Assembly (NCBI GenBank): GCA_000720535.1
Contig: JOAZ01000024.1
Coordinates: 42,127 to 106,126 of the forward strand
Reading direction: 5' to 3'
Source: Streptomyces halstedii
GTDB taxonomy: Bacteria > Actinomycetota > Actinomycetes > Streptomycetales > Streptomycetaceae
DNA: 64,000 nucleotides
The translations under genes were made by a program, and so were the position numbers. The notes beneath the pieces are model-generated. The model saw only the letters and a list, made by a program, of their open reading frames with translations, was not told where the DNA came from and searched no databases. Shown one piece after another: positions 1,429 through 13,830 of this stretch. How positions within the stretch are numbered: the first letter of the stretch is position 1; every line of letters starts with the position of its first letter.

Positions 1429-1887
1429 CTTCTACCTCCTGTGGGGGGCCGCGTACGGGCAAGTGGGGTGCTCGTACACGGAGGATGTGACGCCCACTAT
1501 TCCGATGCGGCGGAGCCCACACAAGGTCGCCTTCTGGACGCACACATGACAACAACACCGCGCACGCACCCTGTTCACACGGCGAGGTCGGAGGGTGCCG
1601 ATTCCACATCGCGAACGCCGCGCGCGGGCCCGAACCGGTGGTACGCGGGCATTCGGCCTGTCCTGAACTCGCCCTCCGCAGTCCGGATGCTGGGGTCGCG
1701 CATCCGGATACGGGGCGCGCGCGGTGCGGTGGGGGGGCGCCAAAGGCCACGGGCCGCACACCGGTTCCTTCCGTCCGGGGAGTCCCGGTGACGCCCTTGA
1801 TGGTTCATCATCGGAAAGACGGAACAGGCAGTACGAACCGGGTAGTTGGGCCCGGACCGGGCGGGGTGGCCGAGCGGAGGAGGCGGA
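1429..1887. other. Divergent intergenic region with inverted repeat
   Basis: This 459-base stretch separates the divergent protease and hydrolase genes and should hold both promoters. The only clear structure is an inverted repeat at 1683-1707 (CCGGATG, 11-base loop, CATCCGG), which could be an operator. I see no further gene with Streptomyces-like codon usage. Confidence 0.4.
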
Positions 1888-2772
1888 GTGCGCAGTCGTG
1901 TGCGCGTGGCGGACGGGCGGCATCTGATGGTGGAGCGTCAGGGGGATCCGCACGGCAGACCCGTCTTCCTCCTGCACGGCACGCCGGGCAGCCGGCTCGG
2001 CCCCGCCCCGCGCGGCATGGTGCTCTACCAGCGCAAGACCCAGCTCATCGCCTACGACCGTCCCGGCTACGGCGGTTCCGACCGGCTGGCCGGCCGGCGG
2101 GTGGTGGATGTCGTCGAGGACATCCGGGCGATCGCCGACTCGCTCGGGCTCGACCGGTTCGCCGTGGTGGGCCGCTCGGGCGGTGCTCCGCACGCGCTGG
2201 CCTGCGCCGCGATGATGCCGGACCGGGTCACCCGCACGGCCGCGCTGGTGGGCCTGGCCCCCTGGGACGCGGTGGGTCTGGACTGGTTCGAGGGCATGGC
2301 CGCGTCCAACGTGCTCGCGTACTCCACCGCCGCCGCCGATCCGGACGGGCTCGCGGAGTCCTTCATCAGCCGTTCGGCGGAGATCCGGCAGGACCCGGTC
2401 CGGCTCCTGGACGACCTGCGCCGGGAGCTGACCGACTCCGACCGGGTGGTGGTCAACGACGCGGGCATCCGCACGCTGCTGCTGGCCAACTACCGTGAGG
2501 GGCTGCGCACATCGGCGTACGGCTGGATCGACGACGCCATCGCGTTCTCCCGGCCGTGGGGGTTCGACCCGGCGGACATCACCGGGCCGGTGATGCTGTG
2601 GCACGGCGAGAAGGACGTGTTCACACCGGTCGGCCACTCGCGCTGGCTGGCCGGACAGATTCCGGGCGCCACCGCCGTACTGGAGCCGGCGGCCGCACAC
2701 TTCGACGCGCTCTCGGTGCTGCCCGAGGTGCTCAACTGGCTGCTGGACGACCGCCCGGCCCCGGTGGGCTGA
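1888..2772 (+). CDS. Alpha/beta-fold hydrolase
   Basis: A 294-residue alpha/beta hydrolase. I place the start at GTG 1888 because GGAGG lies seven bases upstream; an in-frame ATG at 1846 would add 14 residues unlike the family. The oxyanion-hole motif LHGTPGSR, the strand with AYDRPGYGGSD, the nucleophile elbow GRSGGAPHAL (Ser) and the late acid/histidine region (HGEKDVFTPVGHSRW, then AAAHFDAL) are in the usual order. There is no signal peptide, so it is cytoplasmic. Substrate cannot be deduced; esterase, lipase-like or haloperoxidase-like activities are all possible. Confidence 0.85.
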   Translation: MRSRVRVADGRHLMVERQGDPHGRPVFLLHGTPGSRLGPAPRGMVLYQRKTQLIAYDRPGYGGSDRLAGRRVVDVVEDIRAIADSLGLDRFAVVGRSGGAPHALACAAMMPDRVTRTAALVGLAPWDAVGLDWFEGMAASNVLAYSTAAADPDGLAESFISRSAEIRQDPVRLLDDLRRELTDSDRVVVNDAGIRTLLLANYREGLRTSAYGWIDDAIAFSRPWGFDPADITGPVMLWHGEKDVFTPVGHSRWLAGQIPGATAVLEPAAAHFDALSVLPEVLNWLLDDRPAPVG

Positions 2773-2901: not shown

Positions 2902-5900
2902 TCACACCGACATCGGTTCCAGCTCCCGCCGGAACCGCCGCTCGGTCCGCGCTATCCGGGTCAGCGGGTGCTCGTCCCCCAGTTGCCGGGCCAGCTCGTC
3001 ACCCGTCTCCGCCCGCAGCCGCCGCGCCTCGTCCGGCCGGCCCAGCGCGTCCAGCGTCACGGCGAGGTTGGACGTCATGGCCAGGGTCTCCGGGTGGTGT
3101 GCTCCCAGTACCTCCCGGAGCTGCCCGGCCACCGTGCGCTCCGTCTCCAGCACGATCTCCAGCCGCCCGGTGTCGGCCGTCGCGTTCGCCAGGTTCATCA
3201 CGCAGAACAGGGTGTTGGGGTGCTCCCTGCCGAACGTCTCCCGCATCAGGGCGACCACCCGCTTCAGCAGCCGCTCCGCCTCCTCGGGCGCGTCGGACCC
3301 CGAGAGGTAGACACCGAGGTTGTTCTGCGCCGCCAGGGTGTACGGATGCCTCTCCCCCGGCACCTTCATGTACTGGTCGACCACCTCCTGCGCGGTCGTC
3401 CTGGCCTCGGCCGCCTCACCCGCCGCGAACAGGTCGGCCGCCATGTTGAGGTCGCAGGCCAGGGACTCCGGGTTGGCCGCGGTGTACTTGGCCCGGTACC
3501 TGGCCCGGGTCGCCACCGTCAGCCTGCGGGCGTCCTCCAGCTGCCCGGCCCGCCGCAACGACACCGCGAGGCTCTTGGCGGCGCTCAGGGTGGTGGGATA
3601 GGTCCGCCCGAGGGTCGCCTTGAGACTCTCGTACGTACGGCTGAGCAGACCGACCGAGTCCTCGTACCGTCCGACCTCCCGCAGGTCGCGGGCGAGGTTC
3701 AGGGCGGAGGACAGGCTGTGCGGATGCTCCTGGCCCAGCACCTCCGACCTCAGGTCGTAGCAGTCCTGGTCGATCTCGCGGGCCCGCGCGTACTGCCCGA
3801 CGCTCCGCAGGTTCAGCGCCAGGTTGTTGGCCGCCGCCAGGGTCCGGGCGTGCCGCTCGTGGAAGATCTGGTTGAAGCCGTCGTGCGCCTCGGTGGCCAG
3901 CTCGATCGCCCGCCCGTAGTCCCCGAGCAGGCCCAGGTCGATGGCCAGGCTGCTGGTGGTCATGTAGGTGTGCGGGTGCTCCGGCCCCAGCACCTCCCGC
4001 TGGGTCCGCAGCGTGAACTCGTCGAGCTCCTTGGCCTCCACGTACCGCCCGCGGGTGCGGAGGATGTTGGAGAGGTGGAAGCAGAGGTAGAGGTACTGGA
4101 TGTCCCGCTCCCCCAGCATCTCCAGCCAGGTCTCGCGCAGTTCGTCGCCCAGCGTGGCGGCGGTCCTGATGTCACCGCGCTTCCAGAGGTAGCGCACCCG
4201 GTCTATCAGCAGCCTGCGGGTCTCGTGGTCCCGGCAGTTGCGGGCGTCGGACGGCCCGAGGTGCGGCCAGATGGCCGCGAAGCGCGGCCAGGTGTCCGGG
4301 TTGTCGATCGGTTCGGTGTCGTCCGGCCGGGCGCCCGCCAGGATGCGGTGGACGACGTGCCGGGCCTCGGCCTGCTCCTCCTCGCTGAGCTGGGCCCTGA
4401 TCACCGCCTGCACCAGGCGGTGCACCTGGATGGAGTTGGACACCTGGTCGACCTTGGCGAGGGCGAAGCGGCCGATCTCCCGGATGACCCGGCCCAGCAC
4501 CAGCTTCTCCTGGAGGGAGGCGTCGTACGGCTTGAGTGCCTCGATCATCTCCTTGCTGTAGAGGAGGTTCGCGGAGATCGGCTCGGGGGCGAAGAAGGCG
4601 CAGAGCTGGAGCAGCCGCACGGCCGCGGGCGAGCGCTCCTCAAGGCGTTCGATCGAGATGTTCCAGGTGGCCGCGACCGGCTGCGGGTAGCCCGCCGGCT
4701 GGTTGAGGGCGAGCACCTCGGGCGCCTGCCGGGCCAGTTGCTCCAGATAGGTGTCGATGGGGGTGGCGGTCTCCGCGATCCAGGCCGCCGCCTGCTCGAC
4801 GGCCAGCGGCAGGTCACCGACGGCCGTGGCCACCTGGGCCGCGTCCCGCTCGCTGAGCCCCGGGGCCCGGCGCTGGAGGTGCTCGACGGACTCCTCCCGG
4901 AGGAAGACGTCCACCGGCAGCGCGTCGCCGTGCTGGGACCAGGCCTGGTTCCTGGACGTGACCAGGATGTGCCCGGAGCCGCCCTGCGGGAAGTAGCGGC
5001 GGAGCCGTTCCGGGTCGTCCGCGTTGTCGAAGACCAGCAGCCAGCGGTCCGACGGCACACCGCGGCGCAGCAGGTCCACGGCCTCCTTCGAGGCGGCGGC
5101 CATGTCGTCGCCGCCCTGGGCCCCGAGCCGTACGGCGAGTTCGGCGAGCCCCGCGATCACGTCGTCGGTCTGCTCGGACGAGATCCACCACACCAGGTCG
5201 TAGTCGGCCATGAAGCGGTGGACGTACTCCAGGGCCACCTGGGTCTTGCCGACGCCGCCGAGCCCGTAGAGGGTCTGCGGCTGCGGCAGCACGACGGCCA
5301 TCCCGCCGCCGAGCTGGTCGCGCATCCGCTCCAGGACGAGGGAGCGGCCGGTGAAACCGGGGTTGCGGGGCGGTGCGTTCCAGATCCTCGGCACCGTGCC
5401 GGGGAAGCGCGGGCCGGGTGCCACCCCGTCGCCGAGCTGGACCGGCCGGTCCACGGCGCGCATCAGGGCGGTGGTGGCGTGGACCTCGTCCAGCCGGAAC
5501 AGGTCCACCGGGTTGCGGTCGATGTACGGGGCCGAGAGGCGCACGTCGCTGATCCTGAGCGGCAGCAGCCGGCGCCGCCCGCCGCCGGGGTCCTCGGCCA
5601 CCGCCCTGTCCCACAGGCCCACGGCCCGCTGGGACTTGAGGTAGGCGCTGGACAGCAGGACGACCGTACGGGCCGCGGTCTCCGGGGTGGGGCGCGCGGG
5701 GGGCTCGGGTCCGGGGTCGGCGGAGGCGTCCCGGGGGACGACCCGGAATCCGGCCCGGGTGAGGACCGACTCGATCCAGTCCGCCCACATGCGGTTCTCC
5801 GCCACGTAGCTGAGGAAGAGGTCGGCGGGCAGCGCCGGCCTGCGCCGGGTGAAGGCGTCGCGGACGCGCAGCCGTACCTCCTCGCTCATCTGCGCCATCG

Positions 5901-6837
5901 CCGTGACCTCCTGGTCGGTGATCACGGCGGTGAGGCGTTCGAAGGCGGAGAGCAGCGAGTTGCTGAGCCCGGCCTCGTCGCCGAAGGTGGCGAGGGTCTC
6001 CTCGTACGCGTAGTAGGGACGGTAGGGGATCTCCACCGCGCCCCAGTAGGCGGTGAGTTCGTCGCCGGAGAGGTCGCGGGGCAGCCGGTCGAACTTCAGC
6101 CGGGCCAGGGCGCGGCCGGCGTCCGCCTTCTCCTTCTCGCCCTCGTCGATGCGCATCGGGACGGGGAAGATGGAGATGGGCCTGCCCGTGTAGCGCTCGG
6201 CGATCTGCCGGGCGACGGAGGCCGCGCCGTCGATGGACTGGTCGCTCAGGGTGAAGCAGTCCACCAGCACGTCGGGGAGGTGGACGGTGCAGATGTCGGC
6301 GATGTCGCTGAGACCGGTGCGGCTGTCGATGAGGACGTAGTCGTAGTGGGTCTTCATGTCGTCGCGCAGGGCGTCGAAGAAGTGGCCGCCGCCGAGCCGG
6401 TCGTAGAAGTTGTCCCAGTCGAAGGTGGAGACGGTCGCGGAGTACTCGCGGTTCTGCCGTCCGGCGGAGACGAAGTCGAGGGTGCCGCCGCGCGGGAACT
6501 CCCAGCCGAGCGCCTCGGGGTCGAGCGAGACCGCGTGCGGCTGGACGCGCGCGTAGTCGCGGTGCCAGTCGCCGGCGCGCTGGGCGGGGTTGGTCGCGGC
6601 CCAGGCGTACTCGGTGATCAGGTCGATGACCCCGGTGGTGGCGCCGAGTGTCGAGGGGTCGAGGAAGGGGTGGAAGAACCGGTGGAGCCCGGGGGCTTCC
6701 AGGTCCCAGTCGACGGCCAGCACCCGCTTGCCGTTGGCGGCCAGGATCCAGGCGGTGTTGGCGAGGGCCATGGTGCGCCCCGTGCCGCCCTTGTACGAGT
6801 AGAAGGTGACGATGCGCCCGTCACGCCCGGCTGTCAT
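2902..6837 (-). CDS. fxsT: FxsT: ATPase/TIR-like/NB-ARC/tetratricopeptide protein of the FxSxx-COOH system
   Basis: A 1311-residue multidomain protein. Residues 1-310 resemble a MinD/ParA-type NTPase with the P-loop YKGGTGRT (15-22), where Arg replaces the usual final Lys, and a switch-like DYVLIDSRTG near 167. Residues about 326-455 are TIR-like (FLSYVAENRMWADWI onward). An NB-ARC/STAND NTPase follows, with Walker A GLGGVGKT near 515-522 and Walker B-like WLLVFDNADD. The last ~400 residues are TPR repeats of the kinesin-light-chain type. This order fits the FxSxx-COOH system tetratricopeptide protein family. The ATG at 6837 overlaps the fxsC stop as ATGA, so translation is probably coupled. 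An upstream extension to 7164 is possible in frame but would lie inside fxsC. Its molecular role is not established. Confidence 0.88.
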   Translation of the reverse strand: MTAGRDGRIVTFYSYKGGTGRTMALANTAWILAANGKRVLAVDWDLEAPGLHRFFHPFLDPSTLGATTGVIDLITEYAWAATNPAQRAGDWHRDYARVQPHAVSLDPEALGWEFPRGGTLDFVSAGRQNREYSATVSTFDWDNFYDRLGGGHFFDALRDDMKTHYDYVLIDSRTGLSDIADICTVHLPDVLVDCFTLSDQSIDGAASVARQIAERYTGRPISIFPVPMRIDEGEKEKADAGRALARLKFDRLPRDLSGDELTAYWGAVEIPYRPYYAYEETLATFGDEAGLSNSLLSAFERLTAVITDQEVTAMAQMSEEVRLRVRDAFTRRRPALPADLFLSYVAENRMWADWIESVLTRAGFRVVPRDASADPGPEPPARPTPETAARTVVLLSSAYLKSQRAVGLWDRAVAEDPGGGRRRLLPLRISDVRLSAPYIDRNPVDLFRLDEVHATTALMRAVDRPVQLGDGVAPGPRFPGTVPRIWNAPPRNPGFTGRSLVLERMRDQLGGGMAVVLPQPQTLYGLGGVGKTQVALEYVHRFMADYDLVWWISSEQTDDVIAGLAELAVRLGAQGGDDMAAASKEAVDLLRRGVPSDRWLLVFDNADDPERLRRYFPQGGSGHILVTSRNQAWSQHGDALPVDVFLREESVEHLQRRAPGLSERDAAQVATAVGDLPLAVEQAAAWIAETATPIDTYLEQLARQAPEVLALNQPAGYPQPVAATWNISIERLEERSPAAVRLLQLCAFFAPEPISANLLYSKEMIEALKPYDASLQEKLVLGRVIREIGRFALAKVDQVSNSIQVHRLVQAVIRAQLSEEEQAEARHVVHRILAGARPDDTEPIDNPDTWPRFAAIWPHLGPSDARNCRDHETRRLLIDRVRYLWKRGDIRTAATLGDELRETWLEMLGERDIQYLYLCFHLSNILRTRGRYVEAKELDEFTLRTQREVLGPEHPHTYMTTSSLAIDLGLLGDYGRAIELATEAHDGFNQIFHERHARTLAAANNLALNLRSVGQYARAREIDQDCYDLRSEVLGQEHPHSLSSALNLARDLREVGRYEDSVGLLSRTYESLKATLGRTYPTTLSAAKSLAVSLRRAGQLEDARRLTVATRARYRAKYTAANPESLACDLNMAADLFAAGEAAEARTTAQEVVDQYMKVPGERHPYTLAAQNNLGVYLSGSDAPEEAERLLKRVVALMRETFGREHPNTLFCVMNLANATADTGRLEIVLETERTVAGQLREVLGAHHPETLAMTSNLAVTLDALGRPDEARRLRAETGDELARQLGDEHPLTRIARTERRFRRELEPMSV

Positions 6838-8153
6838 ACGTCCTCCGCATCCGTCGCAGGGTCGTGCCTGTCGGATATGAACTGTGTGGGGCCCATCGGT
6901 CCCGTCGGGCCCGTCAGCCGTGTCCGTTCGCCGTGCCGTCCGCCCGTCGAGGGGGGATACGCCGTCGCGTGCCGCAGATACTGCTGGGCGGCCACCTCGA
7001 CCACCCGCGGGAGGACCTGGCCGAAGGCCTCCATGGTCGGTACCCCCTTGGCGGCGGCGCGGCAGAAGGCCCGGCCCTGCCGCATCTTGACCGGCATCGT
7101 CCGTTCGAGCATCTCGGTCAGTTCGGTCTCGGCCGCCCGGCTCTGGTGGTCGTCGCGGCACCACGGCACGACCATGGTCACCCAGGGCCGGTTCTCCTGG
7201 TCGAAGGCGGCGAGCCTGCGTCTCAGTTCCTCGTCCCGCAGGGCCCAGCGGTCCACCAGGAGTATCTCCGGTGTGCTGGGAGCCTGTTTGCCCTCCCGCT
7301 GCCCGGTGTCCTCGTCGAACGAGGTGATGACGGCCTGGTAGTTGAGTGAGCGGACCAGGTCCCCGGTGACGTAGGCCAGTGGTCTGGCGGCGACCGGGTG
7401 GTAGGGGTTCCAGTCCTGCGGATGGTCGCCGTAGTAGTCGGTGGCGCGCCCTTCGGGCAGGTCGTGGCGGGTGGGCGCGGCGACGGTGATCCGCATCCGG
7501 CGGGCAGCGCCCGCCCCGCCGCCCGGTGTCCCGAAGGCGCTGGGGGCGAGCCGGTAGTCCACCGGCCTGCCGGTGTCGATCTGCACGGTGTCCGCGACGC
7601 TGACGATGCGTTTGGCCAGTTCGTAGACCGCCTGCTCGTATTCCTGGGCGAAGAGCCTGAGTTTGATCAGGCCGTAGAGACCGTCACTGACGTACCGTTT
7701 CCCGAAGTCGCGGTGATTGAATTGCAGCCGCTCGGCCGGTCCCGGCAGTTGGCGGGGCGGGACCGGGACCCAGAGGGCCGGGACGATGGCCTCGGCGGGC
7801 TGATTCGAACGGGCCCGGTGGTGGATGGCCCGTTGCTCGAACGCGTACCATTCCTTTCCGCACATCTCACTGGCGAAATAGCGCGGCGAGAACAGGGGTA
7901 CGAACACCCGGCAGGTGGCGAGAACTCCGCCCAGCCGTTCGGACCATCCCTCGCCCGAGCGAATCTCCCTGTCCATGAATCCCGCGGATGCGCTCGCGGG
8001 CAGATCGGTCATCGCCATCACATGACCGCAAAGATCTTGGAAAAGCCGCTCGACCCACATATCGGGGTCCGTTCCACCGCCGTACCCCGGTGTATGCGCG
8101 TAACTCAGAAAGAAGTACGGCCGATGGTCCCGCTGCTGCCTTGACGCGTGCAC
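6834..8153 (-). CDS. fxsC: FxsC: TIR-like protein of the FxSxx-COOH system
   Basis: A 439-residue protein. The N-terminal ~140 residues are TIR-like, beginning RPYFFLSYAHTPGYGG and continuing through DLPASASAGFMDREIRSGEGW, RVFVPLFSPRYFASEMCGKEWYAF. The C-terminal half contains the part typical of FxsC proteins (DRWALRDEELRRRLAAFD near the middle). I choose GTG 8153 over GTG 8186 because a purine-rich GGACGGGGG segment precedes it and the upstream codons lack a ribosome site. The gene ends in a four-base ATGA overlap with fxsT and follows fxsB after 184 bases. The TIR fold suggests protein interaction or NAD-related chemistry, but the family has no proven activity that I know of. Confidence 0.85.
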   Translation of the reverse strand: MHASRQQRDHRPYFFLSYAHTPGYGGGTDPDMWVERLFQDLCGHVMAMTDLPASASAGFMDREIRSGEGWSERLGGVLATCRVFVPLFSPRYFASEMCGKEWYAFEQRAIHHRARSNQPAEAIVPALWVPVPPRQLPGPAERLQFNHRDFGKRYVSDGLYGLIKLRLFAQEYEQAVYELAKRIVSVADTVQIDTGRPVDYRLAPSAFGTPGGGAGAARRMRITVAAPTRHDLPEGRATDYYGDHPQDWNPYHPVAARPLAYVTGDLVRSLNYQAVITSFDEDTGQREGKQAPSTPEILLVDRWALRDEELRRRLAAFDQENRPWVTMVVPWCRDDHQSRAAETELTEMLERTMPVKMRQGRAFCRAAAKGVPTMEAFGQVLPRVVEVAAQQYLRHATAYPPSTGGRHGERTRLTGPTGPMGPTQFISDRHDPATDAEDV

Positions 8154-8337
8154 ACGACCCCCGTCCTGTGTGAGCACTCGCACCACGGAGTGAAAAGAAA
8201 GATGCGAGCGAATTCATCATCACGGAGCAGACTGTGCTCCACCCCCCTGCCGTTCGGTCATTCACCGTTGCTTTTCGGTCATCCGTTCCCGGATGCGGCC
8301 CGCGGCGTCGCCGGCCGGTCCCCGTCCCGGTGTCGTG

Positions 8338-10584
8338 CTACCCGGACGCCCCCCGCGCACCGCCGGCGGTCTCCTTCCGGAGCCGTGCCAGCACGCGCGC
8401 CCCGTCGACGGTCAGTTCGGCCGCCGACTCGATCGAGGCGAGCGCCCGGGGGACGCCGTCCAGGAGCCTCGGTTCCAGGAGCCCCGCACCCACCCGCTCG
8501 AACGTCTCCGCGAACAGGCGGGAGAACGGAACAGCCTCCGGCCCGCCCCAGGGCAGGCGATGCTCCCACGCCCCGTCCGACGCGTACAGGTCCGTGACAC
8601 CGGCGAGTGCCCGGAACGTGGCGCGTCTGTGTCCGCGCAGCAGCGCGAGCGCCAGTTCCCCCGCCCCGTCCTCGTCGCCGAGGCCCAGCGCCCCGTGGCC
8701 GTGCCGTCCGGCCCGGGTCGGGCCCGAGACGAGCGGGGTGACGGTGGTCAGGGCCCGCGCCGCCTCGGCCGCCTGCCCGGGAACGGCCGCGCGCAGCAGT
8801 GCCCACGCTGCGGACAGCCGCGCGTCCCAGGTCCTGACCCCGGCCGGGGTCAGGCGCGCGGCCACGGGCCCGTCGAAGCAGTCGCGCCGGGGATCCAGGT
8901 CGTCGAGTACGAGGACGGGCGCGCCGTCGCCGCCCACCCGGCGCAGCGGGAGCCAGCCGGGGCGGTCCGCCGGGCCCGTCGCGATCAGCCGCTCCGCACC
9001 CGCGCCCCGGTCCTCCGGCCGGACCAGGAGGCCCTCGTCCGTGTCCCGGACCAGGACAGGGCCCCGCCACCCGGTCCGGACCTCGCCGAGCGTGGGGAGG
9101 AAGAACCCGCCGCCGTCCTCGGTGGGCACCGGGACCGTCAGCCCGAGACGGCCGCGCACGGAGGCCGCGGCCACCGAGGCGGCCAGGTGGCGGGCGGCCC
9201 GGTCCGTCACACCGCGGTCGCCCGAGCCGGCCGCCCGCGAGGCGTCCAGGAGCCAGGTGCGGGCGTAGGGACCGGCCAGGACCTCGTCCAGGGCCTCCGC
9301 CCCCCGCTCGGTCCGCTCGGCCTCGTTCGCCAGCTCCCAGGCCGCGTCCCATCCCGTGTGGCCGTGCCCGCCGAGCTCGTCCTGGAGCAGGGCGAGCAGA
9401 TGCCGGTTCAGCTCCAGCTCGGCCGCGGTGAGCGCGTCGGGACCGGCGACGGCCGGTGACCCGAGGGAGGCCGCCGCGCGCTCCTCGACGCCGCGTACCA
9501 GCGCCGCCAGGTCGTCGCAGTAGACGGACGGGTTGTCGAAGCCGTCGCCCGTGCGGTAGCGGTGTGTGTAGAGCCCGCCCCCGCACGAGCGCACGACGGG
9601 GCAGGTACGGCAGGTCTCGCTGACACCGGCGAGGCCGAGCTGCCGGGCTCGGACGCCGGGGTGGGCGGCCACCTCGTCGAAGGTGTTGCGGAAGACGTCG
9701 AAGCCGGTGGCCGCCGCGCCGTCGTAGGCGCTCTTGAGCGAGTCCACCTGTTCGAGCTGTCCGTCGGTCTCGATGACGACCAGGTCCGTGGGGGCCAGTC
9801 CGAGGGACTCGGTGAGGGAGGGGCCGCCGCTCAGGGTGGAGAGGACCGACGAGAAGAGCCGCACGGGCACCGGCCGCCCCCGCTCCGTCCAGCGGTCGAA
9901 GACCGCGAGGAGCCAGTCGGCGTAGGCGGTGGCCGAGCCGTCGGGCCGCGGGGGCGGTTCGTCCCAGGTGGCGTGCGGCAGGAGGAAGTCCACCGCGGGC
10001 GGGTCGAGTGCGACGAGGGCGTCGAAGACGGCGGCGGGGTCGTTGCGGACGTCGATGGTGCACAGCAGCCCGAGGTTCAGGTGCCGGTAGCGGTCCTGGC
10101 GCAGCAGGTCGACGGCCCTGAGGACGAGGGGATGACTGGTGCGCCCGTCGGCGAAGAGGCGGTGCCGGTCGTTGGCCGCGCGGTCGCCGTCGAGGGAGAT
10201 GCCGACCCTGACGCCGAACTCGTCGAAGAGGTCGAGATAGCGGGGGCTGAGCTGGACGCCGTTGGTGTGGATCCTGAGGTCCAGCTCAGCGATACCGTTC
10301 AGTGCCGACGAGAGTTCCTCGCAGACACGGCGCAGGCGGGCGGGGCCGGCCAGGAGCGGCTCGCCTCCGTGCAGGATCACTGACACCGATTCGAGCGTGT
10401 GCTCCGAGGCGTGTTCGGCCAATCGCCGAGCCGCCCATGAAATCGCTTCGTCAGAGATGGACTTGGGTCGGGTGCGCCAGCTCTGGTCCGCGTGTTCATA
10501 GATGTAGCAGTGGTCGCACGCGAGATCGCACCTGCTGTGCACTTTCAGCACAATCTCGCGAAAGGGGACCAGGGGTCCTGTCAT
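8338..10584 (-). CDS. fxsB: FxsB: radical SAM/SPASM peptide maturase with degenerate HExxH domain
   Basis: A 748-residue radical SAM enzyme. The cluster motif is Cys19-x3-Cys23-x2-Cys26 in SRCDLACDHCYIYEH, followed by HGGEPLL and GISLDGD, both typical of peptide-modifying rSAM proteins. A SPASM-type cysteine region follows (CRTCPVVRSCGGG ... VYCDDL). FxsB relatives are known to make a three-residue cyclophane on the F-x-S motif of the partner peptide. The C-terminal part aligns by eye with the HExxH domain fused to FxsB proteins (DLDPRRDC, TPLVSG, TDLY, HRLPW), but the motif itself reads RGHRR (650-654), so metal binding is probably lost. The ATG start lies 30 bases after fxsA in the same direction. 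Confidence 0.92.
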   Translation of the reverse strand: MTGPLVPFREIVLKVHSRCDLACDHCYIYEHADQSWRTRPKSISDEAISWAARRLAEHASEHTLESVSVILHGGEPLLAGPARLRRVCEELSSALNGIAELDLRIHTNGVQLSPRYLDLFDEFGVRVGISLDGDRAANDRHRLFADGRTSHPLVLRAVDLLRQDRYRHLNLGLLCTIDVRNDPAAVFDALVALDPPAVDFLLPHATWDEPPPRPDGSATAYADWLLAVFDRWTERGRPVPVRLFSSVLSTLSGGPSLTESLGLAPTDLVVIETDGQLEQVDSLKSAYDGAAATGFDVFRNTFDEVAAHPGVRARQLGLAGVSETCRTCPVVRSCGGGLYTHRYRTGDGFDNPSVYCDDLAALVRGVEERAAASLGSPAVAGPDALTAAELELNRHLLALLQDELGGHGHTGWDAAWELANEAERTERGAEALDEVLAGPYARTWLLDASRAAGSGDRGVTDRAARHLAASVAAASVRGRLGLTVPVPTEDGGGFFLPTLGEVRTGWRGPVLVRDTDEGLLVRPEDRGAGAERLIATGPADRPGWLPLRRVGGDGAPVLVLDDLDPRRDCFDGPVAARLTPAGVRTWDARLSAAWALLRAAVPGQAAEAARALTTVTPLVSGPTRAGRHGHGALGLGDEDGAGELALALLRGHRRATFRALAGVTDLYASDGAWEHRLPWGGPEAVPFSRLFAETFERVGAGLLEPRLLDGVPRALASIESAAELTVDGARVLARLRKETAGGARGASG

Positions 10585-10614
10585 TCCCCCAGTCTAGCCA
10601 TCTCGGCGCCGAAC

Positions 10615-10782
10615 TCAGAGTGCCGAACTGAAGGTCGAACTCTGGACAGGCCGACGCGCGGAGGTACCGATGACGCGACCGGTCTTCCTGGTGGTCTCGG
10701 CACCCTGGGTGTCGATCTTGGCGAGTGGCACGCGGCTCTTCTTCGCGACGGCGAAGGAGGGGGAGGTTTCGTAGGTCTTCAC
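10615..10782 (-). CDS. fxsA: FxsA: FxSxx-COOH precursor peptide
   Basis: A 55-residue peptide that ends TFSSAL, so the last five residues FSSAL fit the FxSxx-COOH signature exactly. Immediately downstream lies its maturase gene fxsB. I place the start at GTG 10782, which follows AAGGA at five bases; a longer frame starting at GTG 10893 would include the leader inverted repeat and is less likely. The peptide is basic (ten Lys/Arg against three Asp/Glu) and has no cysteine. By analogy with characterised three-residue cyclophane systems, FxsB should crosslink Phe51 and Ser53. The fate of the modified peptide is unknown; no dedicated exporter or protease lies nearby. Confidence 0.85.
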   Translation of the reverse strand: MKTYETSPSFAVAKKSRVPLAKIDTQGAETTRKTGRVIGTSARRPVQSSTFSSAL

Positions 10783-10804
10783 GGCCGTCCTTGAGGGTTT
10801 GTTT

Positions 10805-10851
10805 CCGGACACTGGGTTCACCACCGGAATCTGCGTATTCACAGTGTCCGG
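10805..10851 (-). promoter_or_regulatory. Inverted repeat in the fxsA leader
   Basis: Perfect 10-base arms CCGGACACTG (10805-10814) and CAGTGTCCGG (10842-10851) are separated by 27 bases and end about 20 bases before the fxsA start. They could be an operator for the whole fxs operon or a leader hairpin. No regulator gene is adjacent. Confidence 0.45.
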
Positions 10852-11010
10852 CGGCCTGACTTTACTCCCCCGGCAGCCCCTCGCACATGCCACGGTGGTA
10901 TGAATTCACGGGTTCGAGCCGCATTGCGGGGAAAGGAATCCCCGCGTGGTTGGCCCGGCCGGGTGACGGCGAATAGGCGGGCCGGGCGGGAACCGCGGCC
11001 GGTTCGCCTC

Positions 11011-11718
11011 TCACTCGACGGGGCCGTGCGCGGTGCCTTTCGCCCCCTTCAGCAAGTCGCCCGTCCGCTCGTGGCTGTCACCGGCGATGTCCGTCACCCG
11101 CACCCGCAGGTAGAACGCCTCCACGCGTTCCACGAACCTCTGGGAGAACGCCCCCACCAGCACGGTCTCGTAGCTTCCGGTGGCGACCAGCGGGAAACCC
11201 GGGCCGAGTTCGGGCATCTGGAAGTCCTCGGCGACCACCAGGCCCGCTCCGGTCAGTTCGCGCACGGCGGCCGGGACGTCGATCCAGGCGGAATCGGCCC
11301 GGCCGGCTCCCGCGAGGACCACCCGGCAGTCGCAGGACTCGACGGCCGCGATGTGCTGACCGCCGTTCAGTATGCCCACCCGCCAGGCCGGTACGCCCCC
11401 TCTGAGGTGCCCCTTCTCCCATGCCGCCCGCCAGCCCAGGTAGGGCCGCACGGTACGGGCGTACTGCGCGCGGGCCAGGACCGCTCCGACCGCGACCGCC
11501 AGCAGACTGCCCAGCGCCTCCGGGTCGAGCACCTGGAGCCGCCACGGCCACTGCGCCCGGGTGTCCGGGGCGATGTTGGCACGGACGGCTTCCCAGAGCA
11601 GGACGAGGACCAGCAGTCCGAGCATCACCAGCGGCGCGGTGAACAGCAGCGGGCTCCTGCGGATCCTGCGCTGGGCGAACGTCAGCGGCTCCGCACCGCC
11701 CGGACCTGCGTCGACCAC
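11011..11718 (-). CDS. Two-transmembrane protein of unknown function
   Basis: A 235-residue protein starting at GTG 11718, preceded by GGGGAGGAC with good spacing; a longer frame to 11967 lacks a ribosome site. After a short N-terminus (LTFAQRRIRRS) come two hydrophobic helices, SPLLFTAPLVMLGLLVLVLL (about residues 21-40) and around LGSLLAVAVGAVLARA (about 62-78). A soluble ~150-residue C-terminal domain follows (WRVGILNGGQHIAAVESCDCRVVL ...). I do not recognise the family. The gene is divergent from the DUF4231/SLATT gene and lies in the same direction as the fxs operon, so it may belong to either group. Confidence 0.65.
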   Translation of the reverse strand: MVDAGPGGAEPLTFAQRRIRRSPLLFTAPLVMLGLLVLVLLWEAVRANIAPDTRAQWPWRLQVLDPEALGSLLAVAVGAVLARAQYARTVRPYLGWRAAWEKGHLRGGVPAWRVGILNGGQHIAAVESCDCRVVLAGAGRADSAWIDVPAAVRELTGAGLVVAEDFQMPELGPGFPLVATGSYETVLVGAFSQRFVERVEAFYLRVRVTDIAGDSHERTGDLLKGAKGTAHGPVE

Positions 11719-12036
11719 GCGTCCTCCCCCCGTCGTGAGGGTGCGCCGCCGCGACCGTCTCCGGCACAACTCGCCCTCGTTACAACACAGTTGTGCGACT
11801 CTGCCACAGCTGTCGGCGTCGCGCGAGTGCTTCCGGGGGCCGGATCCGTGGGGGCGGGCCCGAGGCGCCATTGCCGCCGCCGGGACGGCGCCTCTACTCT
11901 CGTGGGTCCGGCAGGTCTCTCCCGCGCCCCTTCCTGTCCCGGGCGCCGCGCGCCCGGGAGACGGCACCGCGGGGCCATGGCCGACCGCGCGGCGGACCGG
12001 CGAGGCGCGCCCGCCACAACTTCAAACGGGGTGAAC
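11719..12036. promoter_or_regulatory. Divergent promoter region with nested inverted repeats
   Basis: This 318-base gap separates the two-TM gene and the SLATT gene. At 11765-11795 CACAACT and AGTTGTG form an inverted repeat with a 17-base spacer, and a smaller palindrome ACAAC-ACA-GTTGT lies inside at 11782-11794. The site is locally AT-rich and well placed as an operator for both genes. Confidence 0.4.
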
Positions 12037-12966
12037 ATGACGGCGATTCCCGGGCCGCTGCGGTCCATGGTGTTCCGGAACGACGACCTGCCCACACTCT
12101 TCCACCACACCGACGCCGTGGCCGTCGCCAGGCAGCGGGAGGCGGTCAACACCACCCGCTGCCAGCTGGCGCTGCTCGTCCTGGGTACCGTGCCCGCCGC
12201 CCTGCCCTGGCACGTCCGGGTCGGTGACTCGGTGCGGCTCCTGGACTGCGTGGCGGTGGCGGCGTATCTGGGTGTCCTGATCACGACGTACGCCGCGGCC
12301 CGCCGCAAAGCGAAGTCGCATTGGCAACTCAACCGCTCCGCCGCCGAGTTCATCAAGTCCAACTGCTGGCGGTACGCGGTGCACGGCTCCCCCTTCGACA
12401 CCGGCACCCTCCACCCGGAGGCGGTGTTCGCCAACCGTCTCGAAGAGGGGTTGCAGGAGTTGCGGAAGGTGGGGTGGCGCGACCCCCGGGAGGAGATGGA
12501 CGACGAGGGCGGCGGGCTCATCACCGCGTCCATGCGGGAGTTACGGGACAAGGCGTTCACCGTACGCAAGGAGACGTACATCCGGGACCGGCTCATCGAG
12601 CAGAGGCGCTGGTACCGCAGGCGGCAGCAGGTGTCGCGGAAGGGGGCGCAGGTCTGGTCGGGCACCGTCGCCGCGCTGACCCTGCCGGCGCTGGTGCTCG
12701 CCGTGCTCCAGAGCCTCGGCACGGCCGGTTCCTTCGCGCTGACCGGGTCGCTGTCCGCGGCCGCCGCGGCCTGCCTCGCCTGGAACGAGACGCGCCGCCA
12801 CCACCCGCTGGTGTCGGCGCACTCGCTGGTGGAGGAGGACCTGGAGAACATGCAGGCCGCGATGGAGACCACGCTGACCGAGCGGCAGTGGGCCGCCGCG
12901 GTCTTCGAGACCGAGCGCATCGTCAGTCCCGAGCACACGGACTGGCTGGCCCGGCACCGGATATGA
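12037..12966 (+). CDS. DUF4231/SLATT-type membrane protein
   Basis: A 309-residue protein with two hydrophobic helix pairs, at about residues 41-59/67-87 and 209-226/230-248. Each pair is associated with SLATT-like features: FIKSNCWRYAVHGSPF after the first and YIRDRLIEQRRWYRRRQQ before the second. This matches DUF4231 proteins, which belong to the SLATT fold, predicted pore-forming effectors of nucleotide-sensing conflict systems. The ATG at 12037 follows CGGGGTG; a GTG six bases earlier is also possible. It converges on a SLOG-like gene 48 bases downstream, the partner type expected for SLATT proteins, although the usual arrangement is an operon. Confidence 0.75.
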   Translation: MTAIPGPLRSMVFRNDDLPTLFHHTDAVAVARQREAVNTTRCQLALLVLGTVPAALPWHVRVGDSVRLLDCVAVAAYLGVLITTYAAARRKAKSHWQLNRSAAEFIKSNCWRYAVHGSPFDTGTLHPEAVFANRLEEGLQELRKVGWRDPREEMDDEGGGLITASMRELRDKAFTVRKETYIRDRLIEQRRWYRRRQQVSRKGAQVWSGTVAALTLPALVLAVLQSLGTAGSFALTGSLSAAAAACLAWNETRRHHPLVSAHSLVEEDLENMQAAMETTLTERQWAAAVFETERIVSPEHTDWLARHRI

Positions 12967-13014
12967 CCACCGACGGGCCCAACCAGCGTGCTCAGAAAGG
13001 CATATGACAGCCTG

Positions 13015-13494
13015 TCAGTTCCGCGTCACACCGTCACGCCAGATGACCGTGACCGGGCGCCCCAGCGTCCTGGCGTACGTCACGATGTCCCCGGTGCCGC
13101 CCAGGCCCCGGGCGGGCAGGCCGTCCCAGACCGCCAGGAGCCGGTCGCAGTGGTCGGCGATGTACGTCCCTGCGGCGTAGTAGGCCTCGTCGGTGGAGTG
13201 CGGGAAGTCCAGGCGGACCTCACGGACCGCGCGGGCCTTCAGCTTCCGGTAGCGGGCGAGATCCGCCTCGTCGTCGAAGCCGTCCTCGTAGTCACCGCTG
13301 GGGATCACCGCGGTCAGCTCCGCCCCGTGGGCCAGGGCGAGGTCGGCGAAGAGCTGGTCCGCGCCGACGGCCAGGCTGGAGAGCGCCTCCAGGGAGCCTT
13401 CGAGCCCGCGCAGCGCGCTCCGTATCCCCTCCAGCACATGGGCGCGCGCCTCCTCGGGGATGGAACGGTGACCGGTCACTCCGATGCGTTTCAC
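13015..13494 (-). CDS. SLOG-like (LOG/DprA-type) nucleotide-binding protein
   Basis: A 159-residue Rossmann-like protein. It begins MKRIGVTGHRSIPEEA, where the TGHR turn is characteristic, continues with SLAVGADQLFADLALAHGAELTAVIP, and ends with the nucleotide-site signature GLGGTGDIVTYARTLGRPVTVIW. This pattern matches SLOG superfamily proteins that are thought to bind or produce a nucleotide signal and often sit beside SLATT membrane effectors. Here the neighbour at 12037-12966 is such a membrane protein, but in convergent orientation. The activity could also be a simple lysine-decarboxylase-like phosphoribohydrolase. Confidence 0.7.
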   Translation of the reverse strand: MKRIGVTGHRSIPEEARAHVLEGIRSALRGLEGSLEALSSLAVGADQLFADLALAHGAELTAVIPSGDYEDGFDDEADLARYRKLKARAVREVRLDFPHSTDEAYYAAGTYIADHCDRLLAVWDGLPARGLGGTGDIVTYARTLGRPVTVIWRDGVTRN

Positions 13495-13678: not shown

Positions 13679-13830
13679 TCAGTACAGGGCGACGCCGTAC
13701 GCGCTCAGCGCCTCCGTCACGGGCTGGAGGAAGGTGGTGCCGCCCGAGGAGCGGTCGCCGCTGCCGCCCGGGGTGAGCCCCACGGGCCGGGAGCCCGAGC
13801 CAGCGGGTCGCCGGGGTCCCCGCGCCGGGC
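13679..13830 (-). pseudogene. Remnant of a streptogrisin-like S1 protease, C-terminal part only
   Basis: On the minus strand this segment translates to a fragment ending [21 protein letters not shown] and a stop, nearly identical to the C-terminus of the intact protease at 343-1428 ([21 protein letters not shown]). Upstream the conserved GDSGGPL motif reads GDPL, so three codons including the catalytic serine are gone. The rest of the gene is missing and the frame runs into the stop region of the DUF1684 gene. It is a decayed second copy, not a product-forming gene. Confidence 0.85.

Follow-up and report, generated by a model that had tools for sequence, protein, structure and literature searches.

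In the excerpts of Kaur et al. (2020, PMC7159879) used here, FxSxx peptides occur together with a radical SAM enzyme, a metallopeptidase and an AP-ATPase with TPRs, stand-alone actinobacterial versions carry an inactive MinD-like domain, and the FxSxx peptide is predicted to be a toxin or a signal in conflict systems; a conflict role for Fxs is already predicted there. SLATT is mentioned in these excerpts alongside GAP1 systems only, and is cited as a predicted nucleotide-responsive pore. According to excerpts of PMC7272460 and PMC11204291, Thoeris signalling runs from a TIR protein, ThsB, to ThsA, which detects cADPR isomers through its SLOG domain. Within the open-licence literature we found no publication linking Fxs to SLATT, which is no proof of novelty, and none on an FxsB cyclophane. 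SLATT and SLOG proteins reportedly form nucleotide-dependent effector pairs, as work by Burroughs et al. from 2015 is said to have described, and to our knowledge Fxs peptides have no established role.

The window, by which we mean the whole 64,000-nucleotide stretch of Streptomyces halstedii DNA that was analysed, carries fxsA, fxsB, fxsC and fxsT as a contiguous block on the minus strand, from 10782 down to 2902, and genes for a two-TM protein, a SLATT_3-SLATT_1 protein and a SLOG-fold protein adjoin it, just as the sequence-only reading had described. Domain and family scans covered the locus proteins in the 0.3-18.7 kb part of the window, and all four Fxs proteins pass the cut-offs of the NCBIfam FxSxx-COOH (FxsABCT) system, which the locus resembles in this respect. 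The precursor peptide FxsA (10615..10782, minus strand) ends in FSSAL, as fits an FxSxx-COOH precursor, and passes marginally (28.3 bits vs a cut-off of 28, scored from a longer start at 10842; the start at 10782 is preferred). FxsB (8338..10584, minus strand; 602 bits vs 370), a predicted cyclophane-forming radical SAM/SPASM maturase, contains the CxxxCxxC motif and a degenerate HExxH extension, which NCBIfam describes as inactivated. A motif scan found no HExxH in this FxsB, ruling out that the extension is an active peptidase or hydroxylase at the window locus, and no zincin-like metallopeptidase was found among the scanned fxs proteins; HExxH is present in 2 of 45 FxsB rows (L111 and L122). 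In divergent Fxs loci with SLATT (L233-L238, L237 included) FxsB is apparently split in two, with one gene for the radical-SAM part and another for the C-terminal part. FxsC (6834..8186, minus strand; 253 bits vs 55) comprises a TIR domain and the FxsC C-terminal domain, and FxsT (2902..6843, minus strand; 1031 bits vs 300) combines a MinD-like AAA domain, a TIR domain, NB-ARC and TPRs.

This build of FxsT, with AP-ATPase/TPR parts and an inactive MinD-like domain, is like that of the stand-alone systems in the Kaur et al. excerpts. Unlike the Fxs systems of those excerpts and of NCBIfam, the window locus has dedicated SLATT and SLOG genes, and, unlike the peptide-processing definition given there, it has no recognisable core metallopeptidase. 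The FxsT-like TPR/AP-ATPase gene is also a feature of the VMAP-ternary (vWA-MoxR) systems with FxSxx peptides in the same excerpts, from which the locus differs in that no vWA, MoxR or VMAP gene was found among the proteins scanned (window 0.3-18.7 kb). A VMAP-type locus occurs elsewhere in the window's genome (G000:C23:156500-176000, L134), where EAD2 domains are found together with an AAA protein and one that resembles FxsT. With Thoeris the locus shares a TIR protein with a candidate catalytic Glu and a SLOG protein at one place; neither a ThsA effector (SIR2-SLOG or TM/macro form) nor a match to a PADLOC Thoeris model was found among the scanned locus proteins. The SLATT_3-SLATT_1 protein beside a SLOG protein is like the SLATT-SLOG effector pairs, unlike which it is tied to peptide maturation with TIR and STAND proteins. 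PADLOC models gave zero matches to the SLATT, SLOG, two-TM, FxsC and S1 protease proteins; FxsT matched the candidate model PDC-M28B alone (79.6 bits), and FxsB gave a weak viperin-type match (pVip, 30.6 bits).

The SLATT gene (12037..12966, plus strand) encodes a predicted pore protein with scores of 127 bits for SLATT_3 and 114 bits for SLATT_1 against a Pfam cut-off of 26.3; a simple hydropathy scan placed two of the four expected TM segments over threshold, and a sequence comparison with the PDB returned no match. The SLOG gene (13015..13494, minus strand) is convergent with it, the two forming no operon. Its product has a Rossmann-like fold by fold comparison, resembling YpsA/DprA and, more distantly, the ThsA sensor; by sequence, nothing convincing was found in the PDB, the best sensible match being DprA (E 0.64). 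The fold and the conserved motifs GxTGHR, GADQ and WDG-PARG-GGT suggest a putative nucleotide sensor. The two-TM protein (11011..11718, minus strand) has two hydrophobic segments and no family match in profile scans. Its gene is present in 20 of 80 named loci (the best 80 of 167 SLATT relatives), so it is an accessory, and its reading as a core component was rejected.

Several other genes frequent the neighbourhood. An alpha/beta-hydrolase gene (1846..2772, plus strand; Abhydrolase_1, 70 bits) is a common neighbour of fxsT, being found in 69 of the 80 named SLATT loci (best 80 of 167). Of 20 FxsC loci that were fetched and lack SLATT, 8 have it, and none was detected in the divergent loci L233-L238. 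A minus-strand reading frame at 13679-13783 ends in a way that resembles the C-terminus of the S1 protease encoded at 343-1428, and since a whole second protease gene adjoins SLOG in many relatives, this frame looks like a remnant. An AAC(3)-like N-acetyltransferase-family gene (PF02522; e.g. L104:10428-11201), scoring far under curated AAC(3) cut-offs, is a feature of many Fxs loci, whether or not they have SLATT, and lies between fxsB and fxsC or next to the locus; its product may modify the Fxs peptide. No such gene was found in the first 19.5 kb of the window, and it is missing from the window's group.

The positions of the catalytic Glu and of the P-loop were assigned by comparison with SARM1 and MinD. 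In FxsC the candidate catalytic Glu (E112, in CGKEW) was present in all 31 SLATT-linked rows of one set and all 11 of a further set; in another alignment it was present in 22 of 24 rows, Gln replacing it in the SLATT-linked L190 and L197. The residue was also found in 17 of 19 FxsC rows without SLATT and was rejected as a marker of SLATT/SLOG linkage: being nearly as common without SLATT, it is no link between the two halves when taken alone. In the TIR domain of FxsT, a Glu occupies the catalytic column in 1 of 45 aligned rows (L130) and is absent from the window's protein, and the MinD-like domain reads KGGTGRT, with arginine where the P-loop lysine is expected. Retention of the Glu in FxsC and its loss from most FxsT TIR domains suggest that FxsC is likely the enzyme and FxsT a STAND scaffold; the odds that FxsC is an enzyme are about even. 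The best fold matches of FxsC were TIR domains, the first being NAD-bound RUN1 (E 0.002, from a low-confidence model), and the predicted structure of whole FxsC (mean pLDDT 59.6) gave no fold match under E 0.001. Long proteins that end in FxsC occur in L119 (9623-14323), L120, L121 and L126; the domain scan covered L119, where FxsC follows a TPR array. This suggests that in other settings FxsC serves as an effector module.

The association between the two gene groups was quantified in a draw of 392 Streptomyces genomes, which contains a smaller draw of 101. The window's SLATT subfamily was found at 110 loci in 108 genomes, and Fxs genes lie beside it at 102 of these loci. At least 89 of the 110 have FxsC within 9 kb among the matches listed (median 4.9 kb), and reading of the fetched DNA showed adjacent Fxs genes at 13 of the remaining 21, at five of which contig ends leave fxsB alone or with fxsA or the acetyltransferase gene. 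The comparison used 150 FxsC positions among the matches listed (at least about 164 bits) plus those of G002, G007 and G091. FxsC was present in 134 of the 392 genomes; 107 of the 108 SLATT genomes contain it, and 27 genomes have FxsC but lack the window's SLATT subfamily. As a control, the same genomes contain 16 loci from other SLATT subfamilies, and none of these was near FxsC among the matches listed. Strong SLATT matches were separated from the others at about 186 bits, two-piece matches were counted once, and a stop-containing 189-bit piece in G627 was placed among the 16 others.

In the smaller draw, a close SLATT (at least 43% identity) was found in 32 of the 101 genomes and a full-length close SLOG (at least 52%) in the same 32, a 33rd genome (G005) holding a SLOG fragment only (60 residues at 73%). 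All 32 hold FxsC, and all except G057 have Fxs genes beside SLATT (31 genomes, among them G028, whose contig ends within fxsB). FxsC matches without a window-type SLATT were found in 11 of the 101 genomes, two of them under the curated cut-off. When the SLATT alignment was used to search species genomes, 167 relatives were found, and the best 80 of them were kept: 79 loci titled Streptomyces and one titled '[Kitasatospora] papulosa'. Among these 80, SLOG is present in all and lies within 360 bp of SLATT in 77, fxsB is present in 78, fxsA in 76, fxsC in 70 and fxsT in 69, contig-end losses included. Several of the named loci are genomes of the 392 draw (L145 = G587, L203 = G617, L154 = G100 and others; G617 was equated with L203 by equal coordinates), and the samples are not independent. 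A draw of 296 genomes from 198 genera of the phylum gave no sign of a SLATT-Fxs unit outside Streptomyces: the SLATT profile matched three genomes, two Streptomyces and one distant (127.6 bits, with no FxsC match), and FxsC was found in three, all of the window's genus. The suggestion that the two gene groups belong together, drawn at first from adjacency, is well supported. Both conditions named at the outset as refuting it fail: the association of Fxs loci with the pair is strong, and the pair does not lie beside random neighbours.

Gene order and flanks vary among these loci. In the window's type of arrangement fxsA and SLATT are divergent; in eight loci (L094-L101) fxsABCT is inverted and SLATT lies directly behind fxsT; in L237 the order is fxsC-fxsT-fxsB-acetyltransferase-SLATT on one strand. 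In L235 and L236 no SLOG was found next to SLATT, and in G079 the two lie about 11 kb apart. The SLATT proteins of linked loci form one subfamily (100/100 against two paralogs as outgroup). A quick FxsT tree rejected a single clade of SLATT-containing loci (AU p 0.0007), and on another quick tree with more loci, which has long branches that the program flags as unsure, the starred branches force at least five changes of the SLATT label; within the window's own FxsT clade, L112 and L116 are without SLATT/SLOG. Since the association persists across flanks, arrangements and FxsT lineages, it is well supported that one class of Fxs systems has SLATT and SLOG as lasting partners. The association partly reflects shared descent, and the counts are not phylogenetically independent. 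Outer flanks (DUF1684, luciferase-like genes and S1 proteases) are largely conserved within the window's clade and differ between other groups of SLATT-containing loci. No SLATT relatives were detected in plasmid and phage collections at E 1e-10 or 1e-5, and a mobile island was rejected. Of the composite island proposed from the sequence, the link between the two groups stands and the island label fits less well, as the flanks in the clade are conserved and the plasmid and phage collections gave no SLATT relatives at these thresholds; the window's locus is a stable chromosomal locus within its own clade.

To explain these results, we propose that the genes of the locus function together, as an Fxs system partnered by SLATT and SLOG and with a TIR-nucleotide-pore circuit, a proposal to which we assign a probability of about 0.55. 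That SLATT/SLOG and Fxs are partners in function is very probable. In the proposed course of events, FxsB would cross-link the C-terminal Phe-x-Ser motif of FxsA, and the STAND protein FxsT would sense a trigger, either the peptide or an activity of an invader, and assemble via its NB-ARC/TPR part. The TIR domain of FxsT looks catalytically dead, so FxsT would act through the TIR protein FxsC, which may make an NAD-derived nucleotide. The SLOG protein might bind this nucleotide, and the SLATT protein would then open a membrane pore, leading to growth stop or death of the affected hypha. The likeliest wiring, we infer, is that SLOG reads a TIR signal and the SLATT pore carries it out; that SLOG/SLATT read the FxsC product in particular is tentative. 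A defence or self/non-self purpose is about evenly balanced against another kind of signal. The fullest version, in which a cyclophane RiPP belongs to a TIR-SLOG-pore immune circuit, with modified FxsA triggering or guarding FxsT and an FxsC messenger passing through SLOG to the SLATT pore, is doubtful.

Loci in which the Fxs core is lost or decayed bear on the alternatives. There are eight among the 110 SLATT loci (G587, G471, G057, G663, G495:C26, G617, G574:C384, a 5.6-kb contig, and G588), some with remnants, G588 keeping fxsB; SLATT stays at all of them, which indicates that the pair can outlive its Fxs neighbour. Besides the core-less SLATT/SLOG pair, G495 and G574 each have a further SLATT, which belongs to a second, different Fxs core (L235 and L236). 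Among the named loci, 12 were without one of fxsB, fxsC, fxsT or SLOG; six of these are cut by contig ends, and the other six were taken as core-lost. Five of the six genomes contain another FxsC elsewhere, in fxsB-C-T-hydrolase sets with no SLATT detected, and in the sixth (L145) no FxsC was found anywhere. Among 17 genomes whose loci are intact, 5 carry a second FxsC, which in two of them belongs to a frame of about 1000 aa (5/6 vs 5/17, Fisher p 0.05, relatedness ignored, several genomes looking related). Counted by lineages drawn by eye, with fused FxsC excluded and relatedness again ignored, the ratio was 3/4 vs 7/48 (Fisher p 0.019), and apparent relatives of the decaying loci, chosen by SLATT identity (L190, L193 and L197), each have one further FxsC (3/3). 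This borderline pattern is compatible with SLATT/SLOG acting in trans for an Fxs core, or giving immunity to its product; we regard it as suggestive and rejected it as proof of immunity. It agrees with a reading in which Fxs yields a toxin or bacteriocin-like product and SLATT/SLOG, perhaps with the acetyltransferase-family gene, protect the producer or act as its membrane receptor, as does the divergent placement of fxsA and SLATT, whose tblastn edges are 150-232 bp apart in 49 of the 57 named loci that lack the two-TM gene. However, the 27 genomes with FxsC and without a window-type SLATT indicate that Fxs does not need SLATT, no exporter was found among the scanned locus proteins, and a plain toxin needs no STAND/TIR parts; we consider this reading unlikely.

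Intercellular or developmental signalling, with a peptide cue read by FxsT and SLATT tuning membrane potential or growth in the absence of any conflict, appears less probable again. It would suit a stable chromosomal locus with conserved flanks and no SLATT match in the plasmid or phage collections, and it would suit the promoter-like conserved block upstream of fxsA (10849..10869, minus strand), which is apparently non-coding, resembles GAGAGTAAAGTCGTGCCGCCG and has three mismatches to the block defined from 49 relatives. With up to four mismatches the block is present in 60 of the 80 named loci (best 80 of 167), a number that includes the 49 relatives that defined it. Upstream of the two-TM gene, a copy better than all 100 shuffles was found in 4 of 20 loci, and the window's own sequence there is no better than shuffles (seven mismatches, best shuffle five). 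Patchy occurrence of FxsC across the 392 genomes, changing partners and repeated loss nevertheless fit accessory conflict genes better than a core pathway of development. Very improbable, finally, is that SLATT/SLOG act alone and lie beside Fxs through old synteny, neighbours by descent only: both flanks are conserved within the window's clade and the core-lost loci lack an intact local Fxs core, as this would have it, but the association spans differing flanks, arrangements and FxsT lineages, and nearly every SLATT genome holds FxsC.

The SLATT/SLOG-Fxs link has moved from an adjacency guess to a quantified association, and natural lineages with and without the SLATT/SLOG arm, or with other gene orders, are now marked for comparison. 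Through their conserved link with a predicted nucleotide sensor and a predicted pore, Fxs peptides gain a concrete candidate output that can be put to the test, in the form of an NAD-derived messenger, a change in membrane permeability, and arrest or death, and this would connect RiPP biosynthesis with bacterial immune-type signalling. If the fullest version of the proposed circuit is true, the locus would represent a RiPP-gated, Thoeris-like immune system in multicellular bacteria.
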